64,000 nt of DNA from Desulfocarbo indianensis (lineage in GTDB: Bacteria; Desulfobacterota; Desulfarculia; Desulfarculales; Desulfarculaceae): contig LBMP01000001.1 in the NCBI GenBank assembly GCA_001184205.1, forward strand, positions 415,365 to 479,364, given 5' to 3'. This document shows positions 23,118 through 60,013 of this stretch, piece by piece; position 1 is the first letter of the stretch, and every line of letters starts with the position of its first letter. Made by a program: the position numbers and the translations under genes. A model generated the notes under the pieces. It ran no database searches, was not told the origin of the DNA, and saw nothing but the letters and a program-made list of their open reading frames with translations.

Positions 23118-23450
23118 TGCAGGCACCTCCAGAGATGTAGATATTAAATCACCGACCATTTTATGTTTTTAAAGATGCCTTGGGCAACCGCCAAATTACA
23201 AAAAAATCAGATAGCCCCGTTTTTTAACCGTGGCTGGTGGCCGCGCTGTCCGCGGGGACGGCGGCGGCGGCGGCCAAGTCGCGGGGACAGCTCTAGCTTT
23301 AGCCAATATATACAAGATATTGGATAAGATTCGCCCCTCCGGGATCACTTGCGGACAAGCCCGGGTTCACGGCCTTTTGGTTGGTCATTCCGGAGCGGTC
23401 GGCAGGGTTTTGCCGCTGGATTGCCCTGGGCCGCCATGGCCGGGCTATTC
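23118..23450. other. Intergenic region between chemoreceptor and fic, no gene seen
   Basis: No coding frame with a ribosome site. Divergent promoters for the chemoreceptor and fic must lie here or in the repeats at 23451-23660, but no clear -35/-10 pair stands out. Confidence 0.45.
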
Positions 23451-23660
23451 AAACCGCGTTGTCTCTCGTTTGCGGTCTAATCCGAGAGACAACGCGGTTT
23501 GTGGTTAAGCGGTGAGCCCCAAAACAGCTTGTCTCTCGCTTTTGGCAAAATATGATAGACAACTAGTTTTGTGGTTAATAGGTTCACCGCAAAATAGCTT
23601 GTCTCTCGCTTTTTAATTTATATTGACCACTAAACGCCTTGATGCTAATTTTTAGCAATA
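23451..23660. repeat. Three tandem 70-bp palindromic units upstream of fic, probable operator array
   Basis: Left arms start at 23451, 23521 and 23591, exactly 70 bases apart, each carrying (A)AA(A/C)C..(C/G)TTGTCTCTCG. Unit 1 is a perfect dyad: 18-bp arms at 23451-23468 and 23483-23500 around a 14-base spacer. Unit 2 keeps 13 of 18 arm pairs (23521-23538 with 23553-23570); unit 3 is more degraded. Units 1 and 2 share GTTTTGTGGTTAA-like sequence after the second arm. The array ends 30-40 bases before the fic start, as expected for an operator. Confidence 0.8.
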
Positions 23661-23688
23661 TATTAACGCCTACTTGCGAGGTTAGGCT

Positions 23689-24810
23689 GTGGATTTCCAT
23701 TTTGAAGACGCCGTGCGCTATCACTATGGCAAGTTTCCGCCGGCCAGCCTTGATCTGGAACAACTCCTCGACCCATTGCTCAAGGCCACCGACGCCGTGG
23801 CGCGTTATGACCAGATGCTGAAGACCATGCACAACAGCGAGATACTGTTGGCGCCCCTGCGCAACCAAGAGGCCGTCATATCCTCCAGGATCGAAGGCAC
23901 CATCAGCACCATGGACGAAATACTCAAGTATGAGGCGGACCATGACGCGGAAAAAGGAACCGCGGTAAGTACAAGATCGGAAATCATTGAGACCTACCTT
24001 TATACAAGGGCCCTGAAAGCCGCGCAAAAGGCGATGGAAGAAGGTTATCTCTTGACTCAATCGCTTATAAAGACAATCCATCAAAGTTTGTTATCTTTTG
24101 GACGCGGCTCTTTGAAATCGCCGGGCAAATTCAAAACCGAGCAAAATTACTTGGCCGACAAATCCAGTAAAAGCATATCGTTTATACCGATCAGCCCGGA
24201 AAAGCTTCGGGATGGCATGGATAGCCTATTCAACTATATGAAGCAAAGCGGGCATCCCCCCTTGCTTAAAACCGCCGTCACCCATATCGAGTTCGAGGCG
24301 CTGCACCCTTTCAAGGACGGCAACGGACGCATCGGACGCATTTTGATCACCTTGATGCTATGGTCCTCGGGCATCATCTCCTCGCCCCATTTTTATGTGA
24401 GCGGATACCTTGAAGACAATAAAAACGAGTATATAGAGAGAATGCGCGACGTGTCCCGCTCTGGAGATTGGGATGGCTGGTGCGCGTTTTTCCTGAAGGC
24501 CGTCGAGCGGCAAGCCGTGAACAATCTCGCGCTGGCGGAGAGCATCCGCGATCTTTACAAAGAGATGAAGCAAAGATTCGCGGGCATTCTGGCTTCAAAA
24601 TGGAGCGTAAATGCCTTGGATTTCATCTTCGGCAATCCGGTATTCAGAAACAATAGATTCACCAAAAACAGCGGCATACCCTCGGCGACCGCGGCCAGAA
24701 TCACCAGGGTTTTGCTGGAACACGACTTGATCAAGACGGTGGAGGAGGCATCCGGCAGGAGGCCGGCTTTATATTCCTTCGAGCCGCTGCTGGAGCTGGT
24801 CAGGGTTTAA
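23689..24810 (+). CDS. Fic-domain AMPylase-type protein with C-terminal winged helix
   Basis: A 373-residue protein starting at GTG 23689 (GAGG seven bases upstream). Residues 1-85 are the Fic_N domain and include the inhibitory helix motif S65SRIEGT (SxxxEG), class II architecture. The catalytic Fic motif HPFKDGNGR is complete at 206-214, with R217 following. The last 70 residues form a winged-helix DNA-binding segment (GIPSATAARITRVLLEHDLI). Relatives transfer AMP from ATP to protein hydroxyls, often autoregulated by the inhibitory Glu. Composition is less GC-rich than the flanks, suggesting transfer. The upstream palindromes are the natural target for the winged helix (inference). Confidence 0.92.
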   Translation: MDFHFEDAVRYHYGKFPPASLDLEQLLDPLLKATDAVARYDQMLKTMHNSEILLAPLRNQEAVISSRIEGTISTMDEILKYEADHDAEKGTAVSTRSEIIETYLYTRALKAAQKAMEEGYLLTQSLIKTIHQSLLSFGRGSLKSPGKFKTEQNYLADKSSKSISFIPISPEKLRDGMDSLFNYMKQSGHPPLLKTAVTHIEFEALHPFKDGNGRIGRILITLMLWSSGIISSPHFYVSGYLEDNKNEYIERMRDVSRSGDWDGWCAFFLKAVERQAVNNLALAESIRDLYKEMKQRFAGILASKWSVNALDFIFGNPVFRNNRFTKNSGIPSATAARITRVLLEHDLIKTVEEASGRRPALYSFEPLLELVRV

Positions 24811-24932
24811 ATTTTGATCGATAATATTATCTGAAAATACCAACGATTTTTAAATAACATATAGCTATTTCATTGCAAGGCTGGGCCGGGCAGGCGTTTC
24901 AGCCCAAAGGCCAAGCGCGTTGCCAATAAAGA

Positions 24933-24970
24933 ATGCCCTGGGAAGCGGCTGCTTAAGCTTCCCAGGGCAT
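24933..24970 (-). terminator. Hairpin terminator downstream of tRNA-Ser
   Basis: Perfect 14-bp arms (24933-24946 and 24957-24970) with a 10-base loop; the minus-strand tail reads TCTTTATT. It lies 10 bases past the tRNA 3' end. Confidence 0.65.
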
Positions 24971-24979
24971 GGCGTTTTG

Positions 24980-25075
24980 TGGCGGAGAGGGTGGGATTCG
25001 AACCCACGTAGCGGGGATTAGCCGCTAACCCGATTTCGAGTCGGGCCCGTTACGACCGGACTTCGGTACCTCTCC
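24980..25075 (-). tRNA. tRNA-Ser(CGA)
   Basis: 96 bases including an encoded CCA. The acceptor stem GGAGAGG pairs with CCTCTCC, discriminator G, then CCA. The anticodon stem CCCGA/TCGGG encloses the loop CTCGAAA, giving anticodon CGA, which reads UCG. The long variable arm (TAGCGG ... CCGCTA) is the class II mark of serine tRNAs, and the T arm has GTGGGTTCGAATCCCAC. It lies eight bases after tadA. Confidence 0.95.
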
Positions 25076-59236: not shown

Positions 59237-60013
59237 GCGGCGCTTTCCGGCGCGGGCCGGCGGGCTCCGCCACGGGGCCGCCCGCCTGGCCAAAGCGGGC
59301 GGAGGGGAAGGACGCCCTGGCCGGCATGCTGCCTCGCCGACTCCCCGAACCAAAATCCTGATTTAAACTTCGGACCGGTTTAAAGGGGCGGGTCACCTAT
59401 GGAGGAGTGGTTTAAATATACTGAGGAAGTCCGAGATGACATCTAAAACTACATTGGCATACTATTTTAGTTGGTTATGGAGGGGCCCCTGTACTCGGAG
59501 GCGCTGATGGGGGAGTTGCGTGGTTAGCAGTCAATCGAGTGAATCATACATCGGATCATCAAGGCTGTGTCTCGTTTCTCTTACCATGGCCGCCGCTGAT
59601 GGGTACATGTGGCCTCGTTGGTTCAGCCCGCACATCTCTACGGGGCAGGGCTGGGCGTGAGCTGAAGCTGAAGCTGAAGCTGAAACTGAAACTGAAACTG
59701 AAACTGAAACTGAAACTGAAACTGAAACTGAAACTGAAACCAAGATATCCTTGACCAGGAGGATTAAACCAAATTATTATATACTTAAATTGAGGATGAG
59801 TGGTGAATATCTGCAGTCTATATCTTAGAACAGTCTTCATTATGTAAAATATATTTGCGGCCTTAGGCTACATATTAAGCGCATGCATTTACGTAATTGT
59901 TGAGGATGCGATGGCCTAATAAAAGAGGAGACTCGGCCTTGGCAGTGACGTTTTTATTAACGTTTTGATTATTTACATCTTTTGGGGATGCTGACTAGGG
60001 AAGGAAATGTGTA
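59237..60013. other. Gene-free region with microsatellite, left part of an AT-rich island
   Basis: No gene is supported in these 777 bases; a frame through 59539-59754 is only the hexamer repeat. From about 59400 the base composition drops sharply relative to the flank, marking the start of a low-GC island that runs to 61100. Confidence 0.5.
59661..59738. repeat. Hexanucleotide microsatellite, 13 units
   Basis: Four GCTGAA units (59661-59684) followed by nine ACTGAA units (59685-59738). A perfect tandem array like this is prone to slippage, so copy number may vary between strains. Confidence 0.9.

Follow-up and report, generated by a model that had tools for sequence, protein, structure and literature searches.

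A conserved, rigidly phased dyad array before a class II Fic gene of Desulfocarbo indianensis is a probable autoregulatory operator

Described DNA-binding Fic proteins and the present locus

CccR of Yersinia pseudotuberculosis, a T6SS effector and Fic repressor-toxin, represses its own promoter as a dimer that acts at a palindrome close to the -35 and -10 boxes (PMC9755527). The site is AGATAATCAT-N26-ATGATAATCT, one 46-bp palindrome with a 26-bp spacer (PMC9755527). CbFic2 of Coxiella burnetii is a dimeric class II Fic protein with a winged helix through which it binds DNA; the affinity is nanomolar and was measured on random DNA only, and no operator array was described (PMC10628234). According to the same paper, DNA binding by SoFic has not been shown (PMC10628234).

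Here, we analyzed a Fic gene of D. indianensis together with the repeats upstream of it, both located in a stretch of 64,000 nucleotides (hereafter, the window). The encoded protein resembles CccR in having a Fic domain and a C-terminal HTH, and at both loci a palindrome lies over the protein's own promoter, which in the window is a predicted one. The sites themselves differ. CccR has a single palindrome with the half-sites AGATAATCAT placed 26 bp apart, whereas the window has the half-site TTGTCTCTCG, a 14-bp spacer, and additional 24-bp dyads every 35 bp; the array does not have half-sites of the CccR type at a 26-bp separation. The first-pass annotation of this DNA had called Fic genes with such operator arrays unfamiliar. 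Autorepression via a palindrome has in fact been published for CccR (PMC9755527), and a full-text literature search, with subscription papers mostly outside its scope, found no description of a Fic operator array. Autorepressed Fic-HTH proteins are known in kind, as exemplified by CccR; an operator of several rigidly phased dyads that is shared by a whole clade of Fic genes, as proposed here, was not found in that search.

Domain organization of the Fic protein

The Fic gene (23689-24810, + strand) has a GTG start and encodes 373 amino acids. Pfam detects Fic_N at residues 30-113 and, above the cut-off, the Fic domain at residues 122-224. The catalytic motif HPFKDGNGRIGR (residues 206-217) matches the HxFx(D/E)GNGRxxR pattern of class II Fic adenylyltransferases. 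SSRIEG (residues 65-70), located N-terminal to the Fic core and conserved in relatives, matches the (S/T)xxxE(G/N) inhibitory motif. These motifs place the protein among the class II Fic enzymes, for which AMP transfer to a protein target is predicted.

In the predicted structure (mean pLDDT 69, pTM 0.72), residues from about 306 to 371 form a C-terminal winged helix of the order helix-helix-helix-strand-strand, with helices within 306-344, strands at 348-350 and 360-362, and pLDDT values of roughly 54-88. The class II inhibitory motif and the winged helix belonging to the protein itself, both named in the first-pass annotation, are borne out by the motif check and the predicted structure. With Fic_N, Fic, and a C-terminal winged helix combined in a single chain, the protein has a SoFic-like architecture.

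SoFic (Shewanella SO_4266; PADLOC SoFic; PMC12249575) shares the class II motif and matches the predicted fold along the entire chain, winged helix included, with a TM score of 0.73; 3zec_A was the best fold match (Z score 28.4). CbFic2, likewise a class II Fic protein with a winged helix, was a weaker structural match (Z score 19.6). The PADLOC SoFic model matched with 353 bits (E 4.6e-106; PADLOC's own cut-off is not given). The protein nevertheless differs from SoFic: the identity in the structural matches is about 21-24%, and the NCBIfam SoFic equivalog NF046030 gave 148 bits, below its curated cut-off of 550. An AS1-like small antitoxin gene is also absent directly downstream, as the + strand from 24810 to the tRNA gene contains no ORF of at least 20 amino acids except one overlapping the tRNA.

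In the region 23160-25075, the GC contents of the Fic gene and the array are 51.6% and 43.0%, respectively, versus 63.1% for the window, and the gene and array end about 170 bp from a tRNA-Ser gene. The AT-rich gene and array near tRNA-Ser suggest acquisition by transfer.

Organization of the repeat array

The repetition upstream of the Fic gene is far beyond chance: within 300 bp, self-similarity at a lag of 70 reached 23 of 25 bases, compared with 19 or fewer in 200 dinucleotide shuffles. TTGTCTCTCG occurs at 23459, 23529, and 23599, a period of exactly 70 bp, and four of its seven copies in the whole 5.1-Mb genome fall inside the array. Dyads of a 34-bp and a 24-bp type, none of which is assigned to a strand, alternate every 35 bp and thereby give the 70-bp period.

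Unit 1 is a perfect inverted repeat at 23450-23501, with 19-bp arms (23450-23468 and 23483-23501) around a 14-nt loop; its core is the 34-bp dyad TTGTCTCTCG-N14-CGAGAGACAA (23459-23492). The first 24-bp dyad, TTGTGGTTAA-N4-TGAGCCCCAA (23499-23522), has its center exactly 35 bp from those of units 1 and 2. Unit 2 is the 34-bp dyad TTGTCTCTCG-N14-TGATAGACAA (23529-23562), in which 8 of 10 arm positions pair, and it is followed at 35 bp by the second 24-bp dyad, TTGTGGTTAA-N4-TTCACCGCAA (23569-23592). Unit 3 consists of the left half-site TTGTCTCTCG alone (23599-23608, + strand), the position of its right half (23623-23632) being held by a predicted -35 box. Nearest to the gene, a weak 34-bp dyad, TTGATGCTAA...TTAACGCCTA (23639-23672; 6 of 10 pairs, by eye), covers the predicted -10 box. 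The window accordingly contains two 34-bp palindromes 70 bp apart, one perfect and one looser, and a third left half-site. This revises the initial description of three palindromic units, in which the 70-bp period was correct and the count was not, and the arms of unit 1, taken as perfect over 18 bp, are perfect and one base longer.

Elsewhere in the window, 13 near-perfect copies of the hexamer CTGAAA are found at 59662-59740.

Predicted promoter and unit 3

A sigma-70 promoter is predicted at 23623-23651 (+ strand) from the sequence and its comparison with relatives, with TTGACC (23623-23628) and TAATTT (23646-23651) separated by a 17-nt spacer. A consensus promoter scan of the window did not report it, and we infer the promoter from conservation among the relatives. 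The right-half position of unit 3 starts with the predicted -35 box. In six relatives (L030, L031, and L052-L055), ATATTGAC is present at the position matching the window -35 box, and in most of them a half-site resembling TTGATGTTAA covers the -10 box. The promoter-proximal dyad near the same place is stronger in L012, L030, and L052-L054, with 7-9 of 10 pairs.

Because the arrangement of half-site and -35 box recurs in relatives, unit 3 is, by this comparison, a promoter-embedded unit of a conserved anatomy and not a decayed one. The progressive decay of units 2 and 3 proposed at first is therefore rejected. Retention of the outermost site, the other part of that proposal, is not general either: both outer units are perfect in L055, and the promoter-proximal unit is perfect in L084. 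An attC-like core, GTTAGGC, seen by eye before the start codon, was dropped as not common to the relatives.

Conservation of the array geometry

The window was compared with 24 relatives (n = 25 in total) of 48-75% amino acid identity from four phyla, drawn from genome contigs, plasmids, genome searches, and virus contigs. Because these sequences are correlated by descent, counts over the relatives do not represent independent events. Exactly 70 bp was the best self-similarity lag in most of the relatives' upstream regions, with secondary lags of 40, 100, and 110. When all loop lengths were scanned with 10-bp arms, the 14-nt loop was best or tied-best in 20 of the 25 sequences, and the mean arm pairing at this loop length was 8.2 of 10 versus 5.1 in shuffles. 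Consecutive 34-bp dyads were spaced by 70 bp in 14 cases, the next commonest spacing being 110 bp (70 + 40; four times). The center of the 24-bp dyad lay at +35 from that of the 34-bp dyad in 15 sequences and at -35 in nine; any other distance occurred at most twice.

The half-site letters vary by subgroup (TTGTCTCTCA, TTGTCTATCA, TTGTCATTCA, TTGTTGCTCA, and TTGGCAACAG). Judged from these sequences, the geometry is kept across the Fic clade while the letters of the half-sites drift. Covariation of the half-site with the recognition helix gave a partial r of 0.33 (permutation p = 0.009), and residues 283-300 scored r = 0.40; changes in the half-site follow the recognition helix no more closely than they follow other segments of the protein. 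The units of L013, L031, and L052 are almost identical to one another within each array and have the appearance of recent duplications. A clear array is absent in a few members of the clade (L018, L019, and L028). L059 (G1306:C13:151402-152211), which matches only from about residue 100 and contains an inner stop, has no array before the gene.

Distribution of the array

The array-bearing proteins form one clade in the tree with a support of 100/100, covering Thermodesulfobacteriota, Cyanobacteriota, Pseudomonadota, and a Bacteroidota plasmid, that is, at least four phyla. The first-pass annotation had suggested looking for such arrays before Fic genes in other genomes, and they were found in most of these relatives. 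None of 18 more distant homologues (25-43% identity), three of which are paralogues from the D. indianensis genome, had a significant repeat upstream, and the idea that the array is general to all Fic-winged-helix genes was rejected on this basis. Upstream of one Fic paralogue of the same genome (L003, G000:C1:626644-627624; about 34% identity), there is a palindrome with 15-bp arms, CGCGGCTAATTAAAC...GTTTAATTAGCCGCG, unlike the array.

The palindrome was searched for with the pattern TTGTCTMTCN{13,17}GAKAGAC. In 11 whole genomes containing a relative, every match was the array before the Fic gene, and the reversed control gave 0. Among 291 genomes of one class, the other matches were just five single sites whose spacers differed, a number that did not exceed that of the reversed control. 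The equal frequency before unrelated genes that would have spoken against a link with Fic was thus not observed in the 11 genomes, and a regulon of a global regulator was rejected since they contain no further sites. The neighboring genes differ in each of the genomes read, so the Fic protein is the only co-inherited candidate for the binder of the array in these sequences.

The same Fic gene, at 61% identity, is present on two palindrome-bearing IMG/VR contigs, together with three dyads at 70-bp intervals. The idea that virus contigs form a further reservoir of the operator was considered and rejected, as Fic-less matches are near the background of other spacers. One 80.8-kb IMG/VR contig (L092:5308-5373) has one array unit comprising both dyad types at approximately the expected spacing (TTTGACATAAATCTGTTAGGGTCTAACTCGCTTGTCTCTC...GATAGACAA); a search of the entire contig found no Fic gene, and the unit may be a relic. 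On a 120-kb IMG/VR contig (L090:2518-2551), a 34-bp dyad and a flanking half-site lie directly before the apparent start of a tmRNA gene (by eye), and Fic was not found on that contig. Three related virus contigs (L085:4522-4555, L087:10283-10316, and L088:6380-6413) contain a perfect 34-bp TTGTCTATC palindrome outside a Fic context.

Proposed mechanism and alternative explanations

We propose that the Fic protein represses its own gene with the array as the operator, its dimers acting cooperatively over the promoter. We estimate the probability of this reading at about 0.75. It retains the operator core of the self-controlling AMPylation module suggested by the first-pass annotation, a core that the conserved geometry, the linkage to one clade, the absence of the palindrome elsewhere in the tested genomes, and the lack of another co-inherited gene all favor.

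The main competitor is that the array is bound by a host transcription factor other than Fic, which would control the Fic gene. We infer the Fic protein to be the binder, and the covariation of the half-site with the recognition helix is not specific to that helix, both of which leave room for such a factor. However, the palindrome is found nowhere else in the tested genomes, and the factor would then be without any other target of this type. It would also need to be conserved across hosts of several phyla, in which the neighboring genes differ and the geometry does not. On this balance, a host factor is improbable.

Far less probable is that the array works as RNA, either as the tandem-hairpin transcript of a type III-like antitoxin or as a Fic mRNA leader. 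The + strand has a strong predicted fold (-81 kcal/mol, z -7.1), and tandem repeats before a toxin-like gene resemble type III systems, but the conserved predicted promoter lies where the array ends on its downstream side and would leave most of the array outside the Fic mRNA. Moreover, G-T pairs are not clearly in excess among the arm mismatches (24 G:T, 18 A:C, and 59 other), and several relatives retain a C:T arm mismatch. Hairpins need no exact 35/70-bp phasing, and no Rfam match covers the array. An RNA role of the array is unlikely in view of these features.

That the repeats are a nonregulatory feature of a mobile element or of recombination (an attachment site, an attC-like element, or a repeat relic) is very improbable: the AT richness of the gene and array (52% and 43% versus 63% GC) about 170 bp from tRNA-Ser suggests transfer, and some virus contigs that lack Fic contain isolated palindromes, but the array, where present in the clade, immediately precedes the gene and extends to the predicted promoter in a fixed register, the loci have no recombinase gene in common as far as they were read, and the Fic-less virus matches are near the background of other spacer lengths.

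In the autorepression mechanism that we prefer, Fic dimers would bind each dyad via the winged helix and would do so cooperatively along the lattice. CccR, a distant Fic protein, offers a precedent for such autorepression, and CbFic2 one for DNA binding by the winged helix. The lattice overlaps the predicted promoter: the -35 box occupies the right-half position of the last 34-bp dyad, and a half-site covers the -10 box. When enough Fic protein is present, it would shut its own promoter (negative autoregulation), and the enzyme activity would be restrained by the inhibitory helix of the protein itself. Titration, loss, or modification of the Fic protein would relieve the repression, plausibly during stress or phage infection, as in SoFic-type systems.

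A tentative extension, which we consider doubtful, is that the Fic protein forms a cooperative helical oligomer on DNA, in which the dyads every 35 bp correspond to 120-degree steps between dimers. The distance of 35 bp is one third of 105 bp (ten turns), or, with 10.5 bp to the turn, three and one third turns, and as a speculation this pitch would allow a three-fold helical arrangement. Assembly on the lattice would silence the promoter and switch or store AMPylation, and the locus would then be a one-gene module resembling a toxin-antitoxin system, with the operator DNA as the 'antitoxin'.

Biological significance

The winged helix is common in Fic enzymes, and its purpose is mostly obscure; in the literature search, a mapped site was found only for CccR. 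A clade-wide, rigidly phased operator would predict the DNA site, the stoichiometry, and the geometry of binding. The Fic enzyme is of the stress- or phage-defence type, and the array travels with one gene family across several phyla, which suggests that single-gene modules carry their own control when they move between phyla.
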